Shown piece after piece: positions 1 through 59,073 of a stretch of 64,000 nt of DNA; within the stretch, counting starts at the first letter, position 1; every line of letters begins with the position of its first letter. The translations under genes were made by a program, and so were the position numbers. The stretch is from a virus. The stretch lies in the IMG/VR virus record IMGVR_UViG_3300021378_000014, positions 1 to 64,000 of that record. One strand, given 5' to 3'. The notes beneath the pieces were generated by a model. That model worked only from the letters and a program-made list of their open reading frames with translations, had not been told where the DNA came from and did not search any database.

Positions 1-2
1 CT

Positions 3-3000
3 GTAGGTATTGATTCTGTAATGCAAAAGCTAATAGAAAAAGCTAGAGCCGCTGAACGTATTTATAATAAATATAACAACCGAGTAATTAAACCTGGTGT
101 TAGTGAAGAAGTTGTAGCAAGGCAACGAGCTTTGCAGATGGATGCTGAATTTAATTTAGATACACAACGTGATGAATTAACTAAAGCTGAATTAGAAGTT
201 GAACGTTTAATGCCAAATATGAGCATTACTACTTCTTTCTTTAGAGAAAGTGTTCAATTAAAAGCTAATCGTGAAGCTAAAGCTATTTTAGAAACAGCAC
301 TTACAAATAAAAATACTACAGATAAAGCTAAAGCTTCTATTGTTAAGCAAATTCAATTGCTTAAAGAAAATAATGAAGCATTAGCGGCTAGTTTAGATGC
401 TGTAAATCCTGGATTAGATAAAAGAGCTTTAACTGGCTCTGAACCTGATCAAGAATTATTAGATACAGCTACTGATGTAGTATTACGTAAAGCCATTATT
501 GCTCAAATTAGTGATAACTTACTTGATCTTTCTTTACCTAAGACTACCGAAGAAATTGCTACTTCTCTAGCTGAAGAAAAGGAACGTAAAACTAAAGAAG
601 CTTATACTCAATTTACTACAGAAGTAAATAATCCAACTACAACTTCTGCTAAGTTAGAATCTATGCTTAGCACTTTAGAATCTACTGATCCTAATTTTGA
701 TAAAAAATCTAAAGTTCTTACAAAACGGATTAAAGATACTAAACGTCAAGAAGCTATAGCTGAAACAGCAAAACGCAAGGCAGAAATTGCTGAAGCTGAA
801 AGATTAAAAAGTACAGAAGCTGCACCTGTAGCTGTAACTCCGGTTGCGGCAACAACTGCCCCAGCAATAACAGTAACTTCTGTAACTACTACAGAACCTG
901 AAGTTGAATCTGCAACTCAAAGTGAAGAGATAACTACTGAAAAACTAGTTGAAGAGCTTGGTACATTAAAAGCAAAACAAGTTCTTGAAGCTATTGAGAA
1001 TGTAAAGTATATGCTCGGAGAAAGTGGAGCTTTACTAGTTACTGAACTACGTAAACTAGCTAAAAAAGCTAAGAAATCTCTTGGTGATCTTGCGGCAGCT
1101 TATCTTAATCAAGAAGCAGATAAACTTGATCCGTCTATTGTTAAAACAGAACTTGTACCTGAAACTGTAGAAGATAGTACAGAAATTAATGCAGTAAAAG
1201 ATAATACAAATGAATTTACCGGAACAGAAACTTTACCAGAAACTTCAGAACCTGTTGTATCAACTATTGTTGAAGAGGTTCAAGGAAAAGAAACAGAAAC
1301 AGAAATTACCAAAGAGGAAGAGGTAGCAACTAAACCTACTCGTACAAGAGTATATAGTGTTATAGCTACCCCTTTTATTGGGGAGTTTAGTGCTAAAAAA
1401 ATTGAAGGATTAATTGGCACTAAGCTATTTGAAGGTGATGTTATTAATACAAGTTATGATAATGGACGTAATAACGGAACTCGTACTTTAATTACTTTTA
1501 TCGTTAAAGATGGTAAGTTAACAGCTAAAGGTTTACCTGCATTTAGTGTATCTAAATCTCGTCGTAGATTTGGTGCATTAGTTGTAAATGAAGATTTACG
1601 TCCAGCGCCTGTAGTTGAAGCACCGACAGTGACTGAAATTCCTGCAGTACCTGAACCTGCGCCTATTGTAGTTGAAGAAACTATTGTAATTGATAACACA
1701 AACTACGGTTCTGCTAATATTTTTGTTCAACCTCTGGCAAAAGGTTTAATTCAAAAAGGAGATACGTACAAAGCTAGTGAAGAAGCAGTAACTGTTATTG
1801 ATGTAGTAAAAGCTATGCAAGTTGGTGATGATATTACATTAGAAGTTGATACTAGTAATGAATATCATAAAGATAATGAAGATAACGCAGCTATAGTAAT
1901 TAAAAAAGATGGAATTGTAATCGGTATGTTAAATATTATTGATTCAATTCAAACTGCTATTAAAAATACGGAGGATCCGGCTGCTGCTAAAATCTTTATG
2001 ACTAACTTAGAAGCTACTCGTAAACTTAGATCAGTAGTTTGGAATAATGGTAATCCAGTTGTAGTATCTACTAAAGTAACTAAACTTACTAGTGGTACTT
2101 TAATTAAAGGTGAAACTTTCATTCCAGTACAAGATAGTTTAGTTGGAGAGTTTGAATTGTATTATGCTGATGATGGTGTAGCTGAAAATGTAGTAATTGA
2201 TCAGCTTATCTCTATTACTGGGAAAGATACTTATGTTAGAACAGGAAACAAAGATTTTCATAATTCAGATTTACAATATACACCTGGTGTATTTTATGCT
2301 TTAATTGCTGGATTAAATGATAATACTGGTTTTAATTCTAAAGAAGAAGTTCAAAATAAAGTAGTAGTAAGATTACGTGTAGCTAATTTAGGTACAAAAG
2401 AACAAAATACTTTATACGGTACTATTGGTAAAGTAATTGAACTAATGCGATCTGGTGAAATTGATTTCAATAAAAATGAAAATTTAAATCAGTTACGTAC
2501 AGCTATTGGTGATATTACAGCTTTTAATAAAAATAATGATAATACTGATGGTACAGTTACTAAGCCATATTTCAAAATACATAAACAGTATATTGAATTT
2601 TTAGCTTACGGTGATACTAAACTGGTACGTATTTATTTTAATAAAGGTAAAGCTAGTTCTACTGTTGTAGTTCATCCTTTTGATAGCAATGCTGGTGATT
2701 ATAATACCTGGGCCGGATTCCGAAAAATGGTAGGCGCAAAGGAATTAGAGGCAAATTTTGACCAGCAAACCGGCGAGAAAGCGCGTGAGATTGTTTTAGC
2801 GGCTTTAGCTACTAAACAGCACCAAATATCTTTGGCAAAGATTAAAAGCGGCCAGATCAGCGCAAAACAATTAATGGACGAAAAGAAGTTGCTGGCTGAT
2901 GTTGGAAAAGTAGTTGATTCTAAAGGTAAAGGTGTTACTAATTTTGTACCTAAAGAGAATAGAGAAAAAACTAGTAACTTAGTTATTAGTGTTGCTTCTG

Positions 3001-6000
3001 GAATTAATGATGGTACAAATACGCAGGTTAAAACCGCTTTCCCAGTAATAGAGAAGGCGAAGCCTGCAAAAAAACCAACTACACAACCCGCTGCTGAAGA
3101 TGATGATATTGCTGCATTACGTAAGTTTATGGAAGATAATCCTACTGAAACTGACGAACGTTATGATGCACTTACTATGCAAGTAGTTGGTCCTATTGCT
3201 ACAGAAGTTTCAGTTTCTATTGAAGAACGTACAGCTAATTGGGAACGTATGTTTGGTAAAAACGTACCATTTGATCCTAATGTTGATGGACTTATTCGAT
3301 ATAAAGGTAAACTTGCTTATGGTTTATTTTCACAAGCTGCCGTTCAATTAAGTAAATTTGCACCAGTTGGCGCTGAAGCCCACGAAGCTTTTCACGTAGC
3401 TATGCACATTTATCTTAGTGAAGAAGCTAGGACTAAAATATACGCAGAAGCTAAAGCTAAATATGGAGATTTAACTGAACGCCAACTTGAAGAATTACTT
3501 GCTGAAGATTTTAGATTATTTGCTATAACTAATAAAACCAAACAAACAGGTATTATTCGTACATTTTTTAATAGACTTAAAGCGTTTATTGAAAATATAC
3601 TTGGTAAATATTCTACTGATCGTTTATTTAATGAAATTAACAGTGGTTATTTTAATTATGCACCTACCGCTAAATCATTAGAATACGCACGTAAAATTGG
3701 TATGACTATGGAAGCTACTCCAGAAGATATTTACGGAGCTGCTAACTTAGATCAATATGTTAATTACATGACAGGAATTGTTAACCAGTGGATTGGTGAA
3801 CATCCTAATGTAACAATGAAAGAAAGAAGTAATAATAACGATTTAAATATTCGTTTAGTAACTAAAGATCAATTAAAGTTGCATTTAGGTACTTTATTAA
3901 ATGAATTAGATACTGTTACAGATAAAAATCGTTTAGCTTCTATTATTCAAGCTGGTAAAATTATTAAATCTTTAATTCTAGATTTAGATACTAAAGATAG
4001 TGCTCTATGGGCTAAAGTTGTAGATAATGCTGATCGCTTGCTTAATTTACGTATTGAAGAAGAAGTTGAATTTGAAGGTAACAATAAACTCAATAAAGAT
4101 TGGGATGATAGACTTGCTTATTCTCGCTCTAGTAAAGAATCATTTGACTTTGATTTGAAACGTATCATTATGGCTACAAGAGCTGTAGATGAATATACTC
4201 AAACTGAAGATGGTATGATGTATACTTATAAACAAGAGAATGCAGCTTTACTTCCTACTTTTATTAATTTCGATTATGTCTATGGTCATTTAGCTAGTCA
4301 AATGGCTAATGCTAGAGATGTAGAAGAAATGATGGCTAGACTTGCTAATATGGCTCAAGCTGATCCTAGCTTTATGTTATTGTGGGAGCGTATTACCGGT
4401 AATCCTTTATTTCAAGCTAAGTGGTTTAGTAACTTTAATAAAACATTTATTGAAGCTGACCATCATCGTATTGTAAGTACAGATGTTGGATTGCGAGTGA
4501 CTAAATCTATTAGTAATAAACGTTACACTTTAGCTGATAACTGGCTTTCTACTATTAATGCTTTAGTATTTGAAAGTAATAAACATGATAATAGTTTTTT
4601 TAATAGTACTTTTAAAATTAAAGTTACTAAACTATTAGAAGAAACTACTGCTTTGTTTAGAAATGCTGAAAGTACGCCACTTGAAATTGCAACGAGTTTA
4701 TCTAAATTAGCTAATGAAATTGGTATTGATTTGCCTGCTGATATTATCTTAAAAATTGGAGATAATCAAGCTTTAGCTGATGGTAAAACTTGGCAAGAAA
4801 CTGTTAATACTTTAATAAATAAACCTTTAAGTATTATTATGCGAGGATTTACTCGTACTATTGATACGGGTAATCCTATTAAATTTGAAAACAGAGGTAG
4901 ATTGAATGAATTAGCTGCTGTTACTAACTTCTTTATTTTTGATTCTACAGAGAACAGTTATTTTGGAGTTGATGGTAATATGCGTTTTAGTCTTAGCAAA
5001 CCATCTTTTATTACGGATTGGTTTGATGATATTAATCAACTTTTAAATCCCTTTACTGTACTTAAAAAGAAAGCTAAATTAAGAGTTCTTCGTAAGTTTC
5101 AAGCTTATGCTCAAGATCCTAGCTTTCAAGCAAGTAATTGGTTATGGAGTACTAAAAACAAACCGGGTATATTTAATGTACCTCATACTACAAATGTAAT
5201 GTCTTTAACTGTAGATAATTTGAATATGAATTTTATCTCTAACTTTAGTTTTACTAAAGATGATGGATTAAAAAACATAAACAAACGTAAAGGTGCTGGT
5301 TATGATGCTCAATCTACACAAGATTGGGATATTAGTAACTTATTGAAATACTTTACTGGTCGTAACAGTAGTATGGCTACTTATCCGATTGTAGTTCAAT
5401 CTGATAGTGGAAATATGTGGAATATTACTAGTACTCGTATCTCAATTTATGAAAATGGAGTTCCTGCTGTTGATGAAAAAGGTAATATTAGTAATACAAG
5501 TAAACTTTACCAAGCTTTATTTAATACTATTAATCAAGAATTAATACGTATGAAGCAAGCTAGAGAATTACTGTTTACAGTTGATCCTGTTACTCAAGAA
5601 CTTAAAGTTAAAGAGGGTATTGAATATGGCGCATTACAAGTTAGATATCATTATCAGAAATTAGATGAAAATGGTGTTCCTATTCTTTTAGTTGACGGTA
5701 AACCTACAGGTAGAGTATTTAGATTTGATAACATGACGTTTGCTGATAATACAGGTAAACTTCAAACGTTAAATAATCGAGGTATTACATATAACGGTAT
5801 GTACCGAGCTGAAGCTCATACTCAAGAAACTACTCAGATTATTGATAAGTTTATTAGAGAATTTGTTAAAAGTCAAGTTATTGCGGGTAATGCTAAATAT
5901 AAAGGATACAAAGAAGTATTAGCTAATTCAAAAGATAATTTTGGTAGTACAATATTAGGTCTTTATAATGATGTGGGTAAAGTAACGGCTTATCAATCTG

Positions 6001-9000
6001 CTATTACTGAACTTATGTTAAATACTTATCTTACTTACGTAGAACATGGTAATTTCATTAATGGAAATATCAGTGAATACAAAGATAATAAAGATACTAA
6101 TAAACGAGCAAAACAAAGTAGTAGTCCTCGTCAAATTCTTAGTACCATTTTTAGAGGTAAAACTTATAAAGGTATTACGTTTGCTGATATTGAAATTACT
6201 AGTTCATTTTATGATGGAATGGTAGAAAATGTAGCAAAACAATTAATAGCTAAAGGTGGATATGACGGATTGAGTTACGATGCAGCTAAAATGCGTAAGA
6301 AAACTCTTCCTGATAATTCTAATACTTTAGAAAAAGATATTCATTTTATTACTAGTGGATATTTATCTATTAATCGTGCCGATGCTCAATCGTATAATAC
6401 AATTGATCGTTATAAAGCTACAATGCAAGATGCTGGACGTTGGAATAATGTATCTGAAGCTGCGTTTCTTAAAATAAAAGTTGGTGAAGATTTAACTGCA
6501 TCTGAATTAAAAGGTTTTTTACAAGTTATTAAACCTTTTTATTACGATAATGTTTATGATTCTCGTATTGGTAAAATGAGAAGTCGTCAATTAAAGAATA
6601 GTATTTTACCATTGATACCTCAACTTGTTAAAGGTACAGCAATGGCTAAAGTACTAGCTGCAATGGAAACCGCAGGTATTGAAGAAGCTTATTTTCAATC
6701 TGCTACTAAAGTAGGTATGGGCTTTATCAATAAAATTACAGATGATCTTGGTAATCTTACTGAAGGCTTTGATGCTAATCTAGTTACTGAAACTTATTTT
6801 AATGCTCATTGGGGTTTACAGCTAGATGTACCTAGTCACTTAAAAGATCAAGAAAATAAACTAGGTGTACAAGTTAGTAAGATTCTTATAGCTAATTTAA
6901 GTAACGATGCTATTTATCAATACAAAGGTTCTTCTATTACTGGGAAAGAACTTCGAGAAAAATACTTTGATTTACTTAGTGCTAATATTGAAGATTCTGC
7001 TCGTAGTTTACTTAAACGTATTGGAGCAAAACAAGTTAATGGCACTTGGACAATTGAAGATTTAACTAAAATTCAAGAAGTACTTGTTAGTGAACTTGAA
7101 AGTAGAGGATTAAGTAAAAATTACACTGAAGCTTTAGAATTTGTAACTGATAGTTTAACAGGAGAAAAAGTATTTAATCTTCCGTTATTTGTTAGTAATA
7201 TGAGTACTAAATTTGAAAGTGTACTTACTAGTTTATTTACTAATAATGTAACTAATCAAAAATTTCCTGGAGGTCACGTTGTACTTGCTAGTGACGCTTT
7301 AATTACGCAGTATGATAATGTTATTAAACCTACCACAAAAGAACCTACTGTTGGAGATATTGTAACTATTGATTATTATTTTGCTGGGCAAGATAAACTA
7401 GTTCCAGTTAAAGCTAAAATAAACAAGCTTGAAAAGTATTATCAAGGAAAAAGTAGAACAACATTACCAAATGGAGAAGTTATAGAAAATCCAGGAACTC
7501 TTGAGTATTATGTAGAATTAACAAATGTAAATAACAATAAAGTTTATAAAGTAACAGTAGATACTTCTGGAATTATAGAACAAACTCATGGTAAAGGTAT
7601 ATTTATAGGAGGAGACAATTATATTAAAGAATTTGATATTAAGAATAGCATTTCTGAAAAAAATACAATCAACGCTACTGGAATTAATTTCCGTAATGAA
7701 GTTATGGATAGAGTAGTTGATGGTACTTTTAGACTTAATCCGCCTATTCTTGAAAATGGTAGAATTGTAGAAGCTGAAGCTTTACTTCCTGCTTGGAGTA
7801 AAAAATTCTTTGATGAAGAAGGTAATCGTATTGATATTAATGATTTACCAGAAGAATTACTGGTAATGATTGGTTATCGTATTCCTACTGAAGCTAAATA
7901 CTCTGTACCTGTAATTAAAGTTGTAGGATTTTTACCGGAAGGTCATGACAGTACAATTGTATTACCTTATGAACTTATTACACAAACTGGATGGGATTTT
8001 GACGTTGATAGTTTTTATATTATGCAACGTAGTTTTGAAGGTAGTGTAGCAGAAGGATTTAAATTAGTTACTGATGAATCTACAAGAGCTGGAAGAAATA
8101 ACGCTATATTTGATATTTATATGGCTATTCTTACTAATCCTTATCATTATGTAGAGAATATAAATCCTGGTAAGTTTACTGATCCTGTAGCTTTAAAGAA
8201 ACGACAAGAGTTTCTTACTGGTGTAGCTGTTGATGACATTAATCCTAATACACGTGATGGTCAAGATTTCTTTAGAAATACTAACATTGCAGGTCGAGCA
8301 CTTAAAGGTTTAGCTGCAAACTCAAATGGTATTTTACCAGTACTTCAAAATATAGAAGCTGAGTTTGGACAAGGTTTTACTTTTACTATGGCTTATGATT
8401 TAAGTAAATACAGTGAACAAGAGTTACGCGATAAATACGGAGAAGATGTTATTATTGAAGGTACTACAGCAATAGTTACACACCGTAAAATTGGCCATTC
8501 TCCTGATGGTAGTTTTACTAATATTAATGGAGATGTTACTACAGATCACGCAGCTCAAATGCTAGCTATGATTCTTGATATTGTTAAAGAAGGTTTACCG
8601 TATAATATCAATACTTATACGTTTGATACTTTTATGGCTATGCTGACTACAGGAATTGATATTAATCATGCTGGTATGTTTATGCGTCAACCCATCATTA
8701 ATAGTTTAGCTGAATTTAAATTAAACAGTGATGGTATTCTTGCTAATAGTACTACTAGACCTATGGAATATATGCGTCGTGATTATCAAACACGACTGTA
8801 TAAGTTAATGGTTATGGAAGGTATTATCAGTAAAGAAGATGCAGTTAAACGTGGACTTGCTATTAATAACGAGAATGGTTTCTACTTTAAAAAGAATAAA
8901 ACTATTTGGCTTACTCATAAAAATAATGATGAAACTAAGTTAGCTAGTGCTGTTTTAGGATTCGATTCTCGTGATACTAAAACTTGGACATTACGTGAAC

Positions 9001-10643
9001 TTGAAGCTGGAATTGCAGCAAGTAACGTGAATAATACAGATGCTATTAAAGCAGAAGGTTTTAAAGGTTGGGCTGATATGAGTAATTTAGAAAAAATAGA
9101 TTACTTTAAAAATCAACTAACTGTACTTGAAATGTTTACTCGTTACAAGAAAAGTGGTGATGCTTTTAGTGCTATTATGAAAGTATTAAATACTGATAAA
9201 TTAGGAGCAGGGCCTAGCCTTTCAGTTACTAATCTTTGGTATGAAAACTATGATGTAGCTAATGGTATTAATCCATTCACTGGAGCTCCTGGTGATATTC
9301 CTATTGTAGTTGGTAATAAATCTGCAGTAGACGCTGTATTTCAAGATGGTGCTTACAAGCCTATGAATGCTTATAAAACTTGGGCTAATGACTTGAGTTA
9401 TAGCGTACTTAGTAAGTTATTTATTGAATATAGCAAAGCTATTCAACAAACTCGGAGTTCTATTTATAGTGTACTTGGCAGACCTAATACTGAAAAAGAC
9501 GGAGTAATTTATACTTTTATGAAGCAAATGCTTAATAACAAGTTATCTTACTTTAAGAAGTTTGACCCTAAACAAGTATTAGGAATTGACTTAGAATTAC
9601 AGTTAACTTTAGATATTACAGATAGTACTAATTTAGAGGCATTTACTAAACTTAGTACTGCTAATAAAGTACAACTTGTTAAAACTCAGTTAGTTGAAGC
9701 GTACAGTGAAAATAGAGCACATATGCTTCATTTTCTTAAACCTAAATTAGATGAAAATTCATTAGATAATAATGAAATTCATCGCTTAGATTTTAGTAAG
9801 CCTAATAGTTCTGACGGTATTGATAACTTAGTTATTGATAGCTTTGATGAAATGTTTGATTCTGATAATCCTTTTATTAAACATCTTGCTGAAGATTTAT
9901 TAGCATATAATTATTTTACAACCGGTATTACTTTTAATAAAAGTAGTTATGCTACTTATATTCCGAGTAGAGTAATGGTTAGTGAAGATTATATGAATAT
10001 GCGTAATGAACTTCAAATATGGAAAACTCTATCAGATAACGATGGGGGTCTATTTGTTAGAAGAGGTGAATCTACTAATTCTGATATTGTAGATATCTTT
10101 ATGCGTAATAGCTGGAATAATGATATTATTGTTCCTAAAGTTAAAAGTCGTTACGTAAGAGATGCAGAAGGTAACTTTATTACTAACGAAGAATCAGGTA
10201 GTAATGAAACTGTAGATGGAACTCCAGATTGGAACTTTCATAATTCAAGTGCAGTACTTGCAGTTAGTTCTGCAGATTTAAACAAGGAAGATCCTAATAT
10301 TAGAAATGCTAGTTATATTCTTCTTTCTAAGTTTGTAGACGGAGCGTTAGAAACTACATTAATGAAACGTTATTTTTCAGAAGAAGCTTTAACTGAAGAA
10401 GATGTTGAAAAAGCAACACCAAAAGAAGATACTATTTATTACTATCCAGTTAGTAAACTTAGTACATCTAGTTCTGGTTATGAGTTTAGTCAAACTTCTA
10501 TTTTTAAAGAAAATAACGTACCTTACACGGAAGATTTATACGTTGAACAAATTGACGGACTTAAATCTGGTGAATATAAGAGTTTAATGGATATTATTAA
10601 CGAACGTAAAGCAAAGAATGATGACAATATCAGAGGTTGTTAG
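3..10643 (+). CDS. Giant virion RNA polymerase polyprotein (5' partial)
   Basis: The frame is open to the left edge, so the first Met at position 21 is probably internal; residues below count from it. DFDVD at 2659-2663, preceded by GYRIP at 2618-2622 and a beta-rich stretch, matches the catalytic-loop context of the beta' double-psi barrel (NADFDGD in cellular enzymes) as kept in single-chain phage RNA polymerases of the YonO/crAss type. KFPGGH near 2413 may belong to the partner barrel. HEAFH at 1121-1125 is a zincin-type HExxH motif. The first 350 residues are charged and coiled-coil-like, then Pro/Glu-rich linkers alternate with beta-rich domains. In crAss-like phages this locus encodes a polymerase carried in the virion and injected to transcribe early genes. 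The protease may process the chain or other cargo (inference). Codon use changes abruptly near 2705-2910, and three copies of the 14-base motif lie inside. Confidence 0.9.
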   Translation, partial: VGIDSVMQKLIEKARAAERIYNKYNNRVIKPGVSEEVVARQRALQMDAEFNLDTQRDELTKAELEVERLMPNMSITTSFFRESVQLKANREAKAILETALTNKNTTDKAKASIVKQIQLLKENNEALAASLDAVNPGLDKRALTGSEPDQELLDTATDVVLRKAIIAQISDNLLDLSLPKTTEEIATSLAEEKERKTKEAYTQFTTEVNNPTTTSAKLESMLSTLESTDPNFDKKSKVLTKRIKDTKRQEAIAETAKRKAEIAEAERLKSTEAAPVAVTPVAATTAPAITVTSVTTTEPEVESATQSEEITTEKLVEELGTLKAKQVLEAIENVKYMLGESGALLVTELRKLAKKAKKSLGDLAAAYLNQEADKLDPSIVKTELVPETVEDSTEINAVKDNTNEFTGTETLPETSEPVVSTIVEEVQGKETETEITKEEEVATKPTRTRVYSVIATPFIGEFSAKKIEGLIGTKLFEGDVINTSYDNGRNNGTRTLITFIVKDGKLTAKGLPAFSVSKSRRRFGALVVNEDLRPAPVVEAPTVTEIPAVPEPAPIVVEETIVIDNTNYGSANIFVQPLAKGLIQKGDTYKASEEAVTVIDVVKAMQVGDDITLEVDTSNEYHKDNEDNAAIVIKKDGIVIGMLNIIDSIQTAIKNTEDPAAAKIFMTNLEATRKLRSVVWNNGNPVVVSTKVTKLTSGTLIKGETFIPVQDSLVGEFELYYADDGVAENVVIDQLISITGKDTYVRTGNKDFHNSDLQYTPGVFYALIAGLNDNTGFNSKEEVQNKVVVRLRVANLGTKEQNTLYGTIGKVIELMRSGEIDFNKNENLNQLRTAIGDITAFNKNNDNTDGTVTKPYFKIHKQYIEFLAYGDTKLVRIYFNKGKASSTVVVHPFDSNAGDYNTWAGFRKMVGAKELEANFDQQTGEKAREIVLAALATKQHQISLAKIKSGQISAKQLMDEKKLLADVGKVVDSKGKGVTNFVPKENREKTSNLVISVASGINDGTNTQVKTAFPVIEKAKPAKKPTTQPAAEDDDIAALRKFMEDNPTETDERYDALTMQVVGPIATEVSVSIEERTANWERMFGKNVPFDPNVDGLIRYKGKLAYGLFSQAAVQLSKFAPVGAEAHEAFHVAMHIYLSEEARTKIYAEAKAKYGDLTERQLEELLAEDFRLFAITNKTKQTGIIRTFFNRLKAFIENILGKYSTDRLFNEINSGYFNYAPTAKSLEYARKIGMTMEATPEDIYGAANLDQYVNYMTGIVNQWIGEHPNVTMKERSNNNDLNIRLVTKDQLKLHLGTLLNELDTVTDKNRLASIIQAGKIIKSLILDLDTKDSALWAKVVDNADRLLNLRIEEEVEFEGNNKLNKDWDDRLAYSRSSKESFDFDLKRIIMATRAVDEYTQTEDGMMYTYKQENAALLPTFINFDYVYGHLASQMANARDVEEMMARLANMAQADPSFMLLWERITGNPLFQAKWFSNFNKTFIEADHHRIVSTDVGLRVTKSISNKRYTLADNWLSTINALVFESNKHDNSFFNSTFKIKVTKLLEETTALFRNAESTPLEIATSLSKLANEIGIDLPADIILKIGDNQALADGKTWQETVNTLINKPLSIIMRGFTRTIDTGNPIKFENRGRLNELAAVTNFFIFDSTENSYFGVDGNMRFSLSKPSFITDWFDDINQLLNPFTVLKKKAKLRVLRKFQAYAQDPSFQASNWLWSTKNKPGIFNVPHTTNVMSLTVDNLNMNFISNFSFTKDDGLKNINKRKGAGYDAQSTQDWDISNLLKYFTGRNSSMATYPIVVQSDSGNMWNITSTRISIYENGVPAVDEKGNISNTSKLYQALFNTINQELIRMKQARELLFTVDPVTQELKVKEGIEYGALQVRYHYQKLDENGVPILLVDGKPTGRVFRFDNMTFADNTGKLQTLNNRGITYNGMYRAEAHTQETTQIIDKFIREFVKSQVIAGNAKYKGYKEVLANSKDNFGSTILGLYNDVGKVTAYQSAITELMLNTYLTYVEHGNFINGNISEYKDNKDTNKRAKQSSSPRQILSTIFRGKTYKGITFADIEITSSFYDGMVENVAKQLIAKGGYDGLSYDAAKMRKKTLPDNSNTLEKDIHFITSGYLSINRADAQSYNTIDRYKATMQDAGRWNNVSEAAFLKIKVGEDLTASELKGFLQVIKPFYYDNVYDSRIGKMRSRQLKNSILPLIPQLVKGTAMAKVLAAMETAGIEEAYFQSATKVGMGFINKITDDLGNLTEGFDANLVTETYFNAHWGLQLDVPSHLKDQENKLGVQVSKILIANLSNDAIYQYKGSSITGKELREKYFDLLSANIEDSARSLLKRIGAKQVNGTWTIEDLTKIQEVLVSELESRGLSKNYTEALEFVTDSLTGEKVFNLPLFVSNMSTKFESVLTSLFTNNVTNQKFPGGHVVLASDALITQYDNVIKPTTKEPTVGDIVTIDYYFAGQDKLVPVKAKINKLEKYYQGKSRTTLPNGEVIENPGTLEYYVELTNVNNNKVYKVTVDTSGIIEQTHGKGIFIGGDNYIKEFDIKNSISEKNTINATGINFRNEVMDRVVDGTFRLNPPILENGRIVEAEALLPAWSKKFFDEEGNRIDINDLPEELLVMIGYRIPTEAKYSVPVIKVVGFLPEGHDSTIVLPYELITQTGWDFDVDSFYIMQRSFEGSVAEGFKLVTDESTRAGRNNAIFDIYMAILTNPYHYVENINPGKFTDPVALKKRQEFLTGVAVDDINPNTRDGQDFFRNTNIAGRALKGLAANSNGILPVLQNIEAEFGQGFTFTMAYDLSKYSEQELRDKYGEDVIIEGTTAIVTHRKIGHSPDGSFTNINGDVTTDHAAQMLAMILDIVKEGLPYNINTYTFDTFMAMLTTGIDINHAGMFMRQPIINSLAEFKLNSDGILANSTTRPMEYMRRDYQTRLYKLMVMEGIISKEDAVKRGLAINNENGFYFKKNKTIWLTHKNNDETKLASAVLGFDSRDTKTWTLRELEAGIAASNVNNTDAIKAEGFKGWADMSNLEKIDYFKNQLTVLEMFTRYKKSGDAFSAIMKVLNTDKLGAGPSLSVTNLWYENYDVANGINPFTGAPGDIPIVVGNKSAVDAVFQDGAYKPMNAYKTWANDLSYSVLSKLFIEYSKAIQQTRSSIYSVLGRPNTEKDGVIYTFMKQMLNNKLSYFKKFDPKQVLGIDLELQLTLDITDSTNLEAFTKLSTANKVQLVKTQLVEAYSENRAHMLHFLKPKLDENSLDNNEIHRLDFSKPNSSDGIDNLVIDSFDEMFDSDNPFIKHLAEDLLAYNYFTTGITFNKSSYATYIPSRVMVSEDYMNMRNELQIWKTLSDNDGGLFVRRGESTNSDIVDIFMRNSWNNDIIVPKVKSRYVRDAEGNFITNEESGSNETVDGTPDWNFHNSSAVLAVSSADLNKEDPNIRNASYILLSKFVDGALETTLMKRYFSEEALTEEDVEKATPKEDTIYYYPVSKLSTSSSGYEFSQTSIFKENNVPYTEDLYVEQIDGLKSGEYKSLMDIINERKAKNDDNIRGC
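2211..2224 (-). repeat. Copy of dispersed 14-base motif (exact)
   Basis: In the polymerase gene, read as SITGKD. Arms TATCTTT/AGAGATA, 7 bp. Confidence 0.8.
3039..3052 (+). repeat. Copy of dispersed 14-base motif (exact)
   Basis: In the polymerase gene, read as FPVIE. Enclosed by an outer GCAGG/CCTGC stem (3023-3068). Confidence 0.8.
6933..6946 (-). repeat. Copy of dispersed 14-base motif (exact)
   Basis: In the polymerase gene, read as SITGKE. Arms GTTCTT/AAGAAC. Confidence 0.8.
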
Positions 10644-11049
10644 TTATTTTGCTCATTATTGGGCTATTTTATTACTTCTTATTGGAGCTGGTACTGCTAA
10701 TGCTATTATGGATACTATACAATTCCATTTTGGAATTAGTATTTTTAAAAGTAGAAGTAATTGGTGGAACAATAAAACTAGTTGGGAGAATAAATGGAAA
10801 CTAGACGCTGAAGGTAAACCTATTGTTGGAAAACCTAGATTTTTTGGTAGTAGTACTTTTTTAGTATTTGTTACTGATGCTTGGCATTTTTTCCAATTTG
10901 TTATGTTTACACTATTTACAATTGCTATTCTTGCGTATAAACCTTATGCAACTGAATGGTACTTTTTTGTTGTTGACTTTATTGCATTTAAACTAATGTT
11001 TAGTGCTGCATTTATAGTTAACTGGAAATGGATTTTAGTTAAAAAGTAA
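10618..11049 (+). CDS. Small multi-pass membrane protein
   Basis: 143 residues, overlapping the end of the polymerase gene by 26 bases, which suggests translational coupling. Hydrophobic segments lie at about 8-30, 80-105 and 112-135, with a basic, Trp-rich loop (about 45-75) between the first two. The ending NWKWILVKK is basic and probably cytoplasmic. I do not recognise the family. Its place between two injected-cargo genes suggests a role in genome or protein entry through the host envelope, but that is inference. Two adjacent Met codons start it; the second is equally possible. Confidence 0.75.
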   Translation: MMTISEVVSYFAHYWAILLLLIGAGTANAIMDTIQFHFGISIFKSRSNWWNNKTSWENKWKLDAEGKPIVGKPRFFGSSTFLVFVTDAWHFFQFVMFTLFTIAILAYKPYATEWYFFVVDFIAFKLMFSAAFIVNWKWILVKK

Positions 11050-11061
11050 TTAGTAAACTTG

Positions 11062-11093
11062 GTGCCGGTACTTTAATTAGTATCGGCACTTTT
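11062..11093 (+). terminator. Intrinsic terminator-like hairpin
   Basis: An 11-base arm (11062-11072) pairs with 11079-11089, apart from one G-T, around a 6-base loop, followed by TTTT. It sits between the membrane protein and the next large gene, so it may reduce rather than stop transcription. Confidence 0.6.
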
Positions 11094-11105
11094 AAATTAA
11101 ATAAC

Positions 11106-14100
11106 ATGGCAAGTACTTGTAAATATATAGCTCCTAATGGGGAACCTAGTAAATTGTATGATGGACTAGTTAAGAAATATGGTGCTGAAACTGCGTTAAA
11201 AACTTGGTTAAACGTAACCGTTAACTTTCCCAGTAATAGAGAATACTCTAGAGATACTAATGGAGAAATAACTATTAAAGAAGTAATAAAACAAGGTTTA
11301 GTAATACCATCCTTTTCTATTACTGGGAAAGATGAAAAGCTTAATTATCATACAAATAAAGCTAATGAACTAAAGTCTGTTTTTGCTGCATCTGGTATTA
11401 ATGTAGAAGTTGTAGTTGATTTAAATGCAAAACAAGCCGGAGCGTTTCTGGCTGTTGATGGTAAACCTACTATAACTATAAATCCTAATTTAGCTAAAGA
11501 TGATACTGTTTTTCACGAGTTTGGTCATATTTATGTTGACTTACTAGGAATGGACGATCCTTTAATTCAAAAAGGTATTGAACAATTAAAGTACACGGAG
11601 CTTTGGAATAAAGTTGCTACTTTATATCCTGATTTAAGTGAAGTTGCTTTAGCAAAAGAAGTATTAACCACTGCTATTGGTATTGAAGCGTCTAAACTTA
11701 AAGGTGTAGATCAATCTAGGTGGACATTATGGATTAATAGTTTATTTAGAAAAATAAGTGAATTACTTGGTATTGAAATTTTTGCAGCTAAACTATTAGC
11801 TCGACAACTTATTACTGGTAATCTTGGTGATAATCTTAATGGTAAATATGAACTTCATGTTCAGTATCAAAAAGATTTAGATTTAGTAAATGATAAATTT
11901 CTTGATAAATTTCAAGTAGTAGAAAAAGCTTTAGGTGTTATTAAGAAAAAGATTTCTACGTTTTATCGTAATATTAAACAAGAAGAAAGAGAGAAAGATA
12001 CTAACTATGTAGCTTTAAAAGAGCTTGAAGAAGCTTTAGTTGAACATACTAATACTGATGTAGAACTAGGTATTGTTGCTTTTATTTCTCAAGCGTTACT
12101 ACAAACTGGTAAGCTTGAACAACGGATTGATCGAATTATTAATCCTACTGTTGAAGATAAAGCTAACGGTAAAGATAAAATTACAGCAGCTGATTTACGT
12201 AAGCTGATGAAATATAATAGTACTTTTGCTTTAGCTAATGATTTAATTGATTTAACTACAACAGATCAAGAATTAAAACAAGCATTAATAGATGCAGGAG
12301 TATATACACATTTGTTACTTATTCAGCAACGACACGATAAAGTTAAAAATAGCGCAACTCGTGTAGCTATTACATTAATTAGTCAAAAGTTTGCAGGTAA
12401 AGGTAATGCTAAAGTTACAGCTATTCGTAGGCAAGAATTAGAACAAGAATATGATTCTCTTCATCGTGAAGAACGTAAAGCTGCTAGACAAAAAGATAGA
12501 AAGTTATTTAGCGATAAAGAAAAACAAGAGTACAGTCAAAAACGTAAGCGTTGGATTGATAGTATGATTGGTATGGAAACTAGCGCTATAGCTTTAAAAA
12601 CTGTTGAACGTTTTAAATATATACTTCAACAAACTAATCAAGATATTGCTTGGACAGATCGTATGTTTATTGACGGTGATGCTATAAACGATGAAATTAT
12701 TCAAGTAGTTATGGAATTATTAGACGCTGCTGATTTTAAAACAATGACAGCTACTAATAAAGAATATGACAAATTGAATGAATTATTTGAACGTTATAGT
12801 AAAGCGCATACTAGTGGAACTCAAACTATAAAATATGATCCATTAATTGAAAATGAAGTTGAACTACGTGATGGTAAATTAGTAGAAACTGGACGTAAAA
12901 CTAAGTATATGGTTAGTGAATATTATAGTGCGTTTCTTGTAGCAAAAAATGCTGCATGGGATGCATATAATAGTGAAGCTAAACGTTATGGTGAAGATAG
13001 TGATCAAGCTCAACTAGCTTTACAAGAAGCTAAAGATTGGGCCAGAGCAAATGAAGTAATTATGCCTGATGGTAGTATATTACCAGTAGGTAAATGGCGT
13101 AATCCTCAGTTTAAAACTATAAGTCAAGATACTACTGTAACTAAAGAAATGTATGATTATTTAATTAATCGTATAGAAGAGGATGATCGTAATGTTCCTT
13201 ATTGGGCTAAACTTACTGATGAAGTTAATGGACATAAATGGTTTAAATTACCATCTGTTAAAAAGAAAGGACTTGAGCGTATTTATGAGAATGGTTTATT
13301 TGATACTATTAAAGATAACGTTAAAAATGTAATTTCACGTGATCGTGAAGATAGTACTGAATTTGGTGGAGATAATGTAGCAGAGTCAGTAAGCGGTATT
13401 GTAAATCGTACTATATCTGTATTAACAGATGAAGAAGGTAACGAAAAGCACGATATTCCTATCAACTTTAGATATGATATTGCAGAAGCTGATCAATCTT
13501 ACGATTTACCTAGTTTAATGCTTCTTAATTATAGTATGGTACGTAATTATGAAAATAAACAAGAACTACAAGCTGATATTGAACTTACTCGTGAATTAGT
13601 AAAGGAACGTAAAGTTGTAAAACAATCAGCTGGATTTCTTAAAGGAGCGTTAACTAAAATTGATGTATTACTAGATACAGGTTTAACTAACTCTAAACCA
13701 ATTACTACTGAAGGTATTGATAGTAATAGCTATAAAGCTCTTGAATCTATAATCGAAGATCGTTTATACGGACTTGCTAGTAGAAGTAGTGTAAGAGCAA
13801 ATAAGATAGCAAGTAAACTAGCTACGTATACAGGTAGTGTATTACTTATTGGTAACTATTTAAGTAGTGGGGCTAACTTAACTGCTGGTATTACTTTTAA
13901 TTGGATGGGTAGACTGGGCGGTACGTATTATACTGCTAACGATATTACTCAAGCTAGTATTAAATACGGAGCTGATTTAGTAGGTATAGTAAACGACTTT
14001 GGTAAAATTAGATATTCAAGTAAAACTAATCTATTAATGGAAAAGTTTAATGCTTTATCTGATTGGAGTGCTGTTGCTAAGAAATTTTCAGATGATAATA

Positions 14101-15161
14101 GATTTAAACAACTAGCTAAGACTCATAGTCTTCACGCTATGAATGCTTTGGCCGAACATAGTATACAAAATGTATTGATGTACGCTATATTAAATAATAC
14201 TAAAGTCATGGATAGTCAAGGTAATTACTTAACTAAAGATGGCACTACTACAGTTTTAGCTGAAGCTATGTCATTAGATGAAGCTTACAGTGTAATTGAT
14301 GGTAAATTAGTATTAGACGAACGAGTTAGTAAAAATACTAAATTTGACGTAGGTGTTGGAGAAGATATGGAATTTGCAATGAGTCGTATGATACGTGACC
14401 TTAATGCTTATCTTCAAGGCCAATATAGTGATCAAAAAAGAAGTGAAATACAGAGATATTGGTATGGTAAACTGATAATGTTACTACGTAAATGGTTACC
14501 TAGAGGTTTAAAATATAGATGGGCTGGTATTGGTAAAGTTGGTATTGGAAAAGATCAGTTAGGTCCAGATGATATATTTTATAGCCGAGCATTAGGTACT
14601 ATAACTGAAGGTTATTATACTACTTCTTTAAGATTTTTACACGGTATTTATCTTGATCTTAAAGCGTTAAAAGCACAAGTTATTATGGAAGAATCTCGTA
14701 GGAATATACGAGCTTTAACTAGAGAACGATGGGAAGGATTAACTGATAATGAGCAGGGTAATGTACAGAAGACAATACGAGAAGCTGCTACTATTGTTAT
14801 ACTTACTCTAGCTGCTACAGCATTAAAAGAAGCTGGAGATGAAGATGATAAACGTGAAAAGTTTTATTATCTTGCTTCATTTTATGCTATTAGACTTCAA
14901 AAGGAAATGTTAACTTATATTAATCCTTCTGAATTTACTAATACTTTACGTAGCCCTAGCGCATCTTTAATTATGATTGATCGGATTACTCACGCTATAA
15001 GTCAATTAGTGTCTAATCCTACTGAAGTATACGCTACTGGACGAAGAAAAGGTACTTTAAAGGTTGCTAAGGATTTTGAAGATTTAGTTCCTATCTTAAA
15101 ACATATTGATCGTGATGTTGATGAAGCATTAGGATTCTTATTAGCTAAGAAGGTGAGGTAG
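11106..15161 (+). CDS. Large virion cargo protein with HExxH protease motif
   Basis: 1351 residues. The N-terminus (MASTCKYIAPNGEPSKLYD) has the look of the second large protein of the crAss-like polymerase locus. HEFGH at 137-141 follows a beta strand ending in TINPNL, the layout of a zinc metallopeptidase active site. The centre is long, charged and helical, with many Lys/Glu heptad-like stretches (about 270-500). The C-terminal quarter holds a short hydrophobic stretch near 1235-1250. In related phages such proteins are packaged with the polymerase and ejected with the DNA. The protease activity and any self-processing are inferred from the motif only. Its first 75 codons contain two inverted copies of the 14-base motif, read as FPSNRE and SITGKD. 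Confidence 0.8.
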   Translation: MASTCKYIAPNGEPSKLYDGLVKKYGAETALKTWLNVTVNFPSNREYSRDTNGEITIKEVIKQGLVIPSFSITGKDEKLNYHTNKANELKSVFAASGINVEVVVDLNAKQAGAFLAVDGKPTITINPNLAKDDTVFHEFGHIYVDLLGMDDPLIQKGIEQLKYTELWNKVATLYPDLSEVALAKEVLTTAIGIEASKLKGVDQSRWTLWINSLFRKISELLGIEIFAAKLLARQLITGNLGDNLNGKYELHVQYQKDLDLVNDKFLDKFQVVEKALGVIKKKISTFYRNIKQEEREKDTNYVALKELEEALVEHTNTDVELGIVAFISQALLQTGKLEQRIDRIINPTVEDKANGKDKITAADLRKLMKYNSTFALANDLIDLTTTDQELKQALIDAGVYTHLLLIQQRHDKVKNSATRVAITLISQKFAGKGNAKVTAIRRQELEQEYDSLHREERKAARQKDRKLFSDKEKQEYSQKRKRWIDSMIGMETSAIALKTVERFKYILQQTNQDIAWTDRMFIDGDAINDEIIQVVMELLDAADFKTMTATNKEYDKLNELFERYSKAHTSGTQTIKYDPLIENEVELRDGKLVETGRKTKYMVSEYYSAFLVAKNAAWDAYNSEAKRYGEDSDQAQLALQEAKDWARANEVIMPDGSILPVGKWRNPQFKTISQDTTVTKEMYDYLINRIEEDDRNVPYWAKLTDEVNGHKWFKLPSVKKKGLERIYENGLFDTIKDNVKNVISRDREDSTEFGGDNVAESVSGIVNRTISVLTDEEGNEKHDIPINFRYDIAEADQSYDLPSLMLLNYSMVRNYENKQELQADIELTRELVKERKVVKQSAGFLKGALTKIDVLLDTGLTNSKPITTEGIDSNSYKALESIIEDRLYGLASRSSVRANKIASKLATYTGSVLLIGNYLSSGANLTAGITFNWMGRLGGTYYTANDITQASIKYGADLVGIVNDFGKIRYSSKTNLLMEKFNALSDWSAVAKKFSDDNRFKQLAKTHSLHAMNALAEHSIQNVLMYAILNNTKVMDSQGNYLTKDGTTTVLAEAMSLDEAYSVIDGKLVLDERVSKNTKFDVGVGEDMEFAMSRMIRDLNAYLQGQYSDQKRSEIQRYWYGKLIMLLRKWLPRGLKYRWAGIGKVGIGKDQLGPDDIFYSRALGTITEGYYTTSLRFLHGIYLDLKALKAQVIMEESRRNIRALTRERWEGLTDNEQGNVQKTIREAATIVILTLAATALKEAGDEDDKREKFYYLASFYAIRLQKEMLTYINPSEFTNTLRSPSASLIMIDRITHAISQLVSNPTEVYATGRRKGTLKVAKDFEDLVPILKHIDRDVDEALGFLLAKKVR
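11227..11240 (+). repeat. Copy of dispersed 14-base motif (exact)
   Basis: In the second cargo gene, read as FPSNRE. Pairs over 16 bp with the copy at 11316. Confidence 0.8.
11316..11329 (-). repeat. Copy of dispersed 14-base motif (exact)
   Basis: In the second cargo gene, read as SITGKD; inverted partner of 11227. Confidence 0.8.
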
Positions 15162-37526: not shown

Positions 37527-39051
37527 AGATAATACTTTTCTCTTTAGCACGACTAAGTGCTACGTATAAAAGATTAAAATATTGTATCTTTTTTATACGT
37601 AGTTCTTCATCTCCAACTTTAAGTCGAATTGCAATATTTTTACCATCAACAAAACTATTGCTGTAAGTACTACCTTGTGATTTATGGGTAGTGATTACGT
37701 AGCCATAATCTATATCTTTTTTAGGTAAATTTTTAAGAACAATATTATTAGCTTTAGCGTATTTAGCTACAGGACTAGTTTTATAATCATTAAAACTATC
37801 AAGTAATAAATAATTTTTACGCCATTTAAAATATTCAACCCAAGCTCTACCTTTTTGGGTACGAGCAGTATAATGAATACTTTCATGCAATAAAGCAAAA
37901 TTATCATACGATTCAGGTTTAACAATATTTAACCAAGGAGTTAGTTCTTGATTACCTGTGTTTTGTAATTGTACTTGCCATGATTTAATAGCGTCTTTAT
38001 CGTTATGTTCTAATTTAACTACTTCGTATTCTTGTGAATTAGTTACAATTTCACTTCCTTTTCCTGCAGATACAGTAGTGTAACACATCAATAAATCGTT
38101 AAGTGTTATAATCTCATCAGTACCAATAATGGCACTACGTACTATGTTATTCCATTCTTTTACTGATTCATTAGTAAAAGTACAAAGTCTTGCGTAATTA
38201 GGATCAAATTTAAACTGTTCATTGCCAAATGTATCTAATACTTTATCTGTAAAATACTTTTTATCTCTAGTAAATTCATACCCTTGTCCATATTGATTAT
38301 AAATCATTGAGTGATTAATACAAATGTATCGAAAGAGATGTTCACGGATTAATTGACCTCTATCGTCACGATCATTATTTACACGTAAGAAATTAAAACC
38401 AGGTACAAGATGTTCAGCACTTTCTGTAAATTTAGCGTATTCATCTGTATTAAAACCACTAGTAAGAGTAGTAATATCACAACGTATAGCGTTAGCTAGA
38501 AATACCAATGGATTATCGGGTTTCTGACGTACTGGTTGTCTTAATTCAAATATATAATCAGATAGTATAAATACAGGACTAGCAGCTTCACCAACAGGAG
38601 GTACTTGATAACCATCACCAATAAACAGAATTTTAGTCTTAAATCGGTATGCTAGTTCTTTAATAAATTCAAACAGTTCAGTATTAATCATACTAGCTTC
38701 GTCAATCAGAAGCAGTTTATATAATCCCATTTGTGGCTCATTTCTACGAGCAAACTTTGGGTTATTTATATCGAAATTGTCAAGTAAAGTATTAGGAGCA
38801 AGACCACAAAGAGCTTGTACAGTAACAGCTTCAAGTCCAGTTACTAAACGTATAACATTCTTTGCTTTGTGAGTAGGTGCTGATACAGCAACTCCAAATT
38901 TATATTTAGAGTTCTTTGTAATTAGTTCAGACAAAAAAGTCTTACCAGTACCAGCAGGACCGATAAGACTACAAAGATAAGTATCAGTATCGTTATTAAT
39001 CCATTCAACTATCCTAGTTAGAGCAGTTTCCTGGTCATTGGTTAAAGTCAT
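37519..39051 (-). CDS. SF1 helicase (Dda/RecD2-like)
   Basis: 510 residues. Motif I GPAGTGKT (31-38), motif II DEAS (117-120), motif III GDGYQVPPVGE, motif V TTHKSQGSTYSNSF and motif VI YVALSRAKEKSIIYV at the C-terminus. These are the AAA_30/UvrD_C_2 signatures of 5'-3' SF1B helicases such as T4 Dda, which help at origins, forks and recombination intermediates. The N-terminus begins directly with the Q-motif region, as in Dda. Confidence 0.88.
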   Translation of the reverse strand: MTLTNDQETALTRIVEWINNDTDTYLCSLIGPAGTGKTFLSELITKNSKYKFGVAVSAPTHKAKNVIRLVTGLEAVTVQALCGLAPNTLLDNFDINNPKFARRNEPQMGLYKLLLIDEASMINTELFEFIKELAYRFKTKILFIGDGYQVPPVGEAASPVFILSDYIFELRQPVRQKPDNPLVFLANAIRCDITTLTSGFNTDEYAKFTESAEHLVPGFNFLRVNNDRDDRGQLIREHLFRYICINHSMIYNQYGQGYEFTRDKKYFTDKVLDTFGNEQFKFDPNYARLCTFTNESVKEWNNIVRSAIIGTDEIITLNDLLMCYTTVSAGKGSEIVTNSQEYEVVKLEHNDKDAIKSWQVQLQNTGNQELTPWLNIVKPESYDNFALLHESIHYTARTQKGRAWVEYFKWRKNYLLLDSFNDYKTSPVAKYAKANNIVLKNLPKKDIDYGYVITTHKSQGSTYSNSFVDGKNIAIRLKVGDEELRIKKIQYFNLLYVALSRAKEKSIIYV

Positions 39052-58012: not shown

Positions 58013-59073
58013 TGACTATACAAGAAATGCACATCGACTTTCAGTTAAAACTGCAAGAAGTGTATGCTTATACTTTTGGTGATTTTACTAAAGAAGAAAT
58101 TGATTGGGTATTAAATGAACATATGTTTAAGTTTATTGAGTATCGTTCTGATCCTAAAAGTAATAGAAAACAAGAAGGATTTGAAAGTACTCAAAAACGT
58201 TATGACGATATTGAAAGTTTAATAACTACAACCTCTCTCCCAGTAATAGAGAATGTGGGGTATGTAAGTGCATTTCTTCCTAGTAATTATTTTAAACTAG
58301 TTAGTGAAAGACCTGTAGTGTCTTGTTCTCCTAAAGTTATTGTAGAACAATCATTATCAAGTTTAGGAATTAATTTAATTAATTCAACTCAAACATCTGT
58401 AGCTACTTATCAACTTACAATTAGTACTAATGGTGATAGTTTTTTATTGTTTGATAAAGCCGATTATACAACAAAAGTTTTAGGACAAAGTGAAATTCCT
58501 TTTTTAACGGCTTTAGTTATAAATAAACTAAGTAGTTATAAACCAGGTCAGCTTATAGCTGCTTGGGAATCTATTGGGGATTTTCACACCCCTAATAAAA
58601 CTGCTGTTGTTGGTTATTATGATAATATAACTATCACCATTACTAGTACTAATAGTACTGGTAATACGTTTACGACAACCTTTACTTTTTCAGCTACTAC
58701 TATTAATAAAGCACAAGTTGCTAATGATAGTAAAGAGGTTGATGCAAGGTTACTTAATCATGAGTTTCTTCATCGTCTATTAGGTAATTATTTTAGTAGA
58801 ACTAGACCTGATTCGCCAGTGTGTGTAATAGAAGATGGTATAATTAAGGTTTACTATTCAAATTTTAGCGTTAGTAGTGTTAATATAACTTATGTTAAAT
58901 CTCCTAGATTAATGAGTAATTCTTTAAGTATAGATTGCGAATTAGGAAGTAGAACTGGTCAACGTTACAATATTTGTAGACAGATTGTAGATGCTGCTGT
59001 AGCGAGTGTTGCTGGTAGAATTTCTGCTGGTAACACTCCTATTTTAACTGAAAATTTTTTAATAACTGAATAA
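58012..59073 (+). CDS. Neck/adaptor (ring) protein
   Basis: 353 residues. The first 70 are helices (EMHIDFQLKLQEVYAYTFGDFTKEEIDWVLNEHMFKFIE, then SDPKSNRKQEGFESTQKRYDDIESLI) typical of the portal-proximal adaptor of crAss-like phages. The remainder is beta-rich. Translationally coupled to the gene before. A motif copy encodes LPVIE near 78. Confidence 0.65.
   Translation: MTIQEMHIDFQLKLQEVYAYTFGDFTKEEIDWVLNEHMFKFIEYRSDPKSNRKQEGFESTQKRYDDIESLITTTSLPVIENVGYVSAFLPSNYFKLVSERPVVSCSPKVIVEQSLSSLGINLINSTQTSVATYQLTISTNGDSFLLFDKADYTTKVLGQSEIPFLTALVINKLSSYKPGQLIAAWESIGDFHTPNKTAVVGYYDNITITITSTNSTGNTFTTTFTFSATTINKAQVANDSKEVDARLLNHEFLHRLLGNYFSRTRPDSPVCVIEDGIIKVYYSNFSVSSVNITYVKSPRLMSNSLSIDCELGSRTGQRYNICRQIVDAAVASVAGRISAGNTPILTENFLITE
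58237..58250 (+). repeat. Copy of dispersed 14-base motif (one mismatch)
   Basis: Within the neck gene, read as LPVIE. Arms TCTCT/AGAGA, 5 bp. Confidence 0.75.

Follow-up and report, generated by a model that had tools for sequence, protein, structure and literature searches.

Two HExxH motifs in the virion RNA polymerase cargo of a crAss-like phage, HEAFH in a giant polymerase chain and HEFGH in a second cargo protein, lie in modules that are probably zincin-like. We give about an even chance to a scheme in which both motifs are zincin-like active sites on injected cargo: the polymerase cargo chains would be packaged and ejected uncut, they would refold in the host, and proteolysis there, of either host proteins or the cargo itself, would be part of early takeover. 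Because the virions of relatives seem to hold such chains uncut, we favour action after entry, and the protease probably does not help the chain through the tail.

The virion polymerase locus extends across the contig ends

The window, i.e. the whole stretch of DNA analysed, covers the first 64 kb of a virus record of 81,416 bases, which is classed as linear. The final 392 bases of this record (contig positions 81,025–81,416) repeat window positions 1–392 with four mismatches and in the same frame; the genome is probably circular, of about 81,024 bases, despite the linear class of the record. Since the record ends repeat over these 392 bases, the ORF at 3–10643 is in frame across the contig end. 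Its missing N-terminal 553 residues are encoded at the other contig end, translation starting from an ATG at contig position 79,368. The earlier note had described a chain of more than 3500 residues; the chain is indeed giant, but its start in the window is the contig edge, and once the contig ends are joined its length is about 4,099 residues, HEAFH falling at 1680 and DFDVD at 3218. Joining the ends places HEAFH at the position usual in most relatives. The ORF carries the DFDxD motif and matched phi14:2 gp66 (PDB 6vr4) in a phmmer search (E 8e-24); judged by these two sequence features, the chain is a crAss-like virion RNA polymerase. The features of the locus are as follows.

3..10643, plus strand: giant chain of the virion RNA polymerase, in which a gp47/g067-like part is fused to a gp66-like polymerase
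3135..3656, plus strand: domain A, putative zincin-like module (HMM span); residues 1045–1218 (1598–1771 of the full chain), immediately preceding the polymerase part
3381..3395, plus strand: HEAFH, predicted zinc ligands and catalytic Glu of domain A; residue 1127 of the 3–10643 ORF
3492..3494, plus strand: Glu1164, predicted third zinc ligand of domain A; alignment column E135, 69/69
7995..8009, plus strand: DFDVD, polymerase catalytic motif; residue 2665 of the 3–10643 ORF
10618–11049: small ORF of 143 residues, between the polymerase ORF and the 1351-residue cargo ORF
11106..15161, plus strand: RNA polymerase associated cargo protein, 1351 residues, phi14:2 g065 homologue (tblastn E 1e-95)
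11325..11825, plus strand: domain B, putative zincin-like module spanning roughly residues 74–240, close to the N terminus (alignment, model and Foldseek)
11514..11528, plus strand: HEFGH, predicted zinc ligands and catalytic Glu of domain B; residue 137 of the 11106–15161 ORF
11658..11660, plus strand: Glu185, predicted third zinc ligand of domain B, 8/8; predicted helix 179–193

The 143-residue protein appeared by eye to be membrane-spanning, and locus L105 has a 254-residue ORF at the corresponding place. Two other HExxH motifs occur in coding frames of the window, HESIH at 37887 (minus strand) and HEFLH at 58759; they are in proteins outside the polymerase cargo set and may be due to chance.

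Both motifs are conserved beyond chance

Both motifs lie where the earlier note had placed them, and shuffling each protein gave an expectation of 0.028 HExxH for the 3–10643 protein and 0.013 for the 11106–15161 protein. Our first conservation count was biased because the search pattern used to gather the loci had included HEAFH; hence, we masked the ligand columns and recounted on loci retrieved through the polymerase motif. We gathered 80 IMG/VR loci via the polymerase DFDxD region, with HExxH playing no part in the selection, and 70 of these were non-redundant. The giant ORFs of these 70 polymerase-anchored crAss-like loci contained 67 HExxH motifs, compared with 3.4 expected, and at least one was present in 53 of the 70 loci, compared with 3.3 loci expected. 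Permuted controls in the same loci occurred 9 (H..EH), 2 (HH..E) and 12 (EH..H) times. A model of domain A that ignored the ligand positions yielded a motif-independent sample of 31 copies, including a few from near-identical phages, and HE..H was kept in 29 of the 31. In an alignment of 69 domain A sequences, partly gathered by a pattern that included HEAFH, conservation was highest in the columns of the zinc ligands and the catalytic residue (first H, E and the later Glu, 69/69 each; second H, 68/69). A single-sequence scan of IMG/VR with the 11106–15161 protein gave no confirmed relative; among eight aligned domain B sequences, the H, E, F and second H of HEFGH were all invariant.

We consider it extremely improbable that the motifs are chance HExxH strings with no protease domain: the observed count is about 20 times that expected and the ligand columns are conserved, and these conservation data largely refute a chance origin. 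What speaks for chance is that domain A has no match to a solved structure and that no curated family was matched above its cut-off. Neither domain A nor domain B reached any family cut-off in Pfam or NCBIfam, and searches of Pfam, PHROGs and NCBIfam with the window proteins gave only sub-threshold or chance matches. The gathering cut-off of MPTase-PolyVal (Pfam PF18818) was not reached, and this family was not listed for A or B; it appeared at E 0.063 for one related sequence of a set comprising phi14:2 g065, cr1, p-crAss gp45 and others (hereafter, the phi14:2/p-crAss set), a set in which the Pfam families SprT-like, ATLF, M78 and MPTase-PolyVal all matched weakly.

Domains A and B have a predicted zincin topology and are related to one another

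The AlphaFold model of domain A has a core pLDDT of about 90–95 and the order helix, strands, HExxH helix, Glu helix, with HEAFH (98–102 in the model) on a predicted helix at 95–108 and E135 on a predicted helix at 130–151. The domain B model has the same order, at low confidence (pLDDT 57). The metallopeptidases of polyvalent proteins have a core order that matches the predicted topology of both domains (PMC5512222). With domain A, Foldseek found no PDB match with E < 0.001 among solved structures, the weak matches containing no credible zincin; among viral models it found crAss-like proteins and, weakly, large polyvalent proteins. With domain B, the best matches were mostly zincins (4l7a, MATCAP, lethal factor, IrrE/PprI and ArdC), at E values of only 0.04–0.5 and from a query model with a pLDDT of 57. 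Based on these models, each domain is probably a zincin-like, gluzincin-type module, in which a Glu on a later helix than that of HExxH (Glu185 in domain B) is the probable third zinc ligand. The description of HEAFH and HEFGH in the earlier note as plausible zincin sites is supported by the conserved ligands and predicted topology of both, and for HEFGH also by the weak zincin matches. The structure prediction that the note had called for gave the zincin order for both domains, but for domain A no match to a solved zincin.

Profile comparison gave values of 3.3e-5 for A against B, 1.1e-7 for A against the phi14:2/p-crAss set and 2.9e-6 for B against the same set, each being the pairwise value of a single comparison. 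The A–B alignment extends beyond the active site into the next helical segment, so the simplest reading is that A and B would be diverged copies of one module. Motif, conservation, predicted topology, position and the kinship of the two modules are our own observations.

The modules occur in fused, unfused, missing and dead versions

Domain A and the polymerase are in one chain in 63 loci, with domain A a median of 1432 residues before DFDxD; in the chain described here, it sits between the gp47-like part and the polymerase part. In the 17 other loci, domain A is near the end of its ORF, a few of these ORFs being short or contig-edge fragments, and in at least 13 of the 17 it lies in the last 150–290 residues of a gp47-like protein whose locus encodes the polymerase separately. 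Because the unfused loci keep it there, domain A is best regarded as a C-terminal domain belonging to the gp47-like protein, which would come to lie at a junction only where the genes are fused. Domain A was not found in phi14:2, L105, L107 or L108, and was not detected in some fused chains (e.g. L115 and L125).

Some copies have lost active-site residues. For domain A, the motif is HEAFE in L100, L103 and L127, and there is no HE at all in L188; nevertheless, residues 1563–1808 of L188 scored E 1.9e-33 with the ligands masked, although HEAFH is gone, indicating that the fold is kept. Structural retention is likely in copies with dead sites. For domain B, the first His is lost in L116, L117 and L136 (EEAAH). 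In loci where both modules were detected, a dead B accompanied an intact A (L116, L117 and L136) and a dead A accompanied an intact B (L100 and L127), these being too few independent cases for significance. We are doubtful that Crassvirales keep a redundant, paralogous pair of injected proteases with at least one necessarily active, such that one may decay as long as the other is intact.

In a bajarodcaudo virus (L011 20281–28296) and in p-crAssphage (L018 11118–17006), the other HExxH type occupies the C-terminal place of domain A, and the two types look as if they replace each other. The phi14:2 tail protein g070 (L007 27364–29142; 593 residues) has HEFTH at 234 and HEFIH at 461, with similar preceding residues.

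Comparison with known systems

The association of metallopeptidases with virion polymerases is recurrent in phages and already described. Iyer et al., 2017 reported metallopeptidases always fused to N4-type virion polymerases, and discussed self-processing and effector roles (PMC5512222). The zincin-like MPTase of the N4 vRNAP, gp50, resembles our modules in its HExxH and Glu helices, its fusion to a virion polymerase and the roles proposed for it (PMC5512222); however, the N4 polymerase is T7-like, and direct profile similarity to our modules is weak (0.00011 to 0.036). Thermus phage P23-45 gp96 is likewise a giant virion protein with a DFDxD polymerase and a metallopeptidase (PMC10770324), but it is the tape measure protein of a long-tailed phage, and the likeness lies in the combination of domains.

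Closer to our phage, p-crAssphage (Carjivirus communis, BK010471) gp45 was deposited as 'putative RNAP associated protein fused to zincin protease'. It has an HExxH zincin about 200 residues from its C terminus, its profile is related to domains A and B, and its cargo gene directly precedes the polymerase; by contrast, that gene is separate from the polymerase, the motif is of the HESLH type, and one such domain was seen, compared with two in our phage. The C-terminal domain of crAss001 gp47 is the same HEAFH...EE..AE module in virion cargo (HEAFH at 2159/2343), but it is not fused to the polymerase and was deposited only as 'putative RNA-polymerase subunit'. No HEFGH-type motif or domain B was found in crAss001 gp49. 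The homologue of the domain B protein in phi14:2, g065, has an N-terminal HEIMH domain at a comparable position, but this domain is only 15–19% identical to other members of its set, and phi14:2 lacks domain A. We found no paper discussing crAss-like zincin domains in a literature search that lacked some key papers; the occurrence of two related modules within a single cargo set may be new, as may the survey of versions that are intact or dead, fused or unfused.

Possible roles of the modules

We infer zinc binding and peptidase activity for both modules, together with their timing and substrate. That cargo would be about full size in virions comes from published work on relatives. crAss001 gp47, gp49 and gp50 are 262.5, 154.5 and 276.9 kDa (PMC10172136), and all three were detected among the high-molecular-weight proteins of crAss001 virions, with excised bands of 150, 270 and >300 kDa (PMC6235969). 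The 270 and >300 kDa bands fit uncut chains, the assignment of bands to proteins being ours and not that of PMC6235969. P23-45 gp96 is full-sized in virions (PMC10770324), and N4 vRNAP was reported to be packaged unprocessed (PMC5512222).

A different role, possible but on balance unlikely, is self-cleavage: by cutting close to the junction of the gp47-like and polymerase parts, domain A would release the polymerase from the fused chain, either following ejection or before it. The position of domain A at this junction in the 63 fused chains is consistent with such self-processing. Moreover, P1 DdrB undergoes processing for which its own C-terminal metallopeptidase is probably responsible, and Iyer et al. 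suggested that N4-type vRNAP likewise processes itself, 'readied for release during invasion' (PMC5512222). We rate polymerase release lower as the main role because unfused phages, i.e. the 13 or more loci with a separate gp47-like protein, keep the domain; fused chains with no detected domain A, one with HEAFE, and the near-full length of the cargo in virions of relatives also argue against it. We think it quite unlikely that the module is chiefly a structural element in packaging or assembly, its zincin fold being retained while catalysis is secondary or has been lost. The strongly conserved fold of dead copies such as L188 points in that direction, as does the requirement for the metallopeptidase-bearing region of N4 vRNAP in encapsidation (PMC5512222), and in some phages the module may be only structural; by contrast, the conservation of the zinc-ligand and catalytic columns over all others, and the intact motif in nearly all copies of the motif-independent sample, argue for catalysis.

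The earlier note had proposed that self-cleavage or unfolding by these domains lets the chain through the narrow tail, as a novel part of ejection. We consider this very improbable. We know of no protein-unfolding activity in zincins and, on this general knowledge, rejected an unfolding role for these domains; cleavage for passage is at odds with the seemingly uncut virion chains of relatives. Partial unfolding of the cargo is indeed required by constrictions in the crAss001 tail, but the published model attributes passage to head pressure with partial unfolding (PMC10172136). In addition, the absence of domain A from phi14:2, L105, L107 and L108, and the failure to find domain B in crAss001 gp49, argue against a need for either module in passage. 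A role in ejection is also hard to reconcile with retention of the domain where the polymerase is a separate gene, and with fused chains in which it is missing or dead. Nor is the idea novel, self-processing having been proposed by Iyer et al., 2017.

The role of metallopeptidases carried in virions is a question common to N4-type, P23-45 and crAss-like phages. Our catalogue provides naturally occurring versions of the module, fused or unfused and intact or dead, such that a cultivated phage, e.g. crAss001, could show at which stage the activity is required: before ejection, during it or afterwards.
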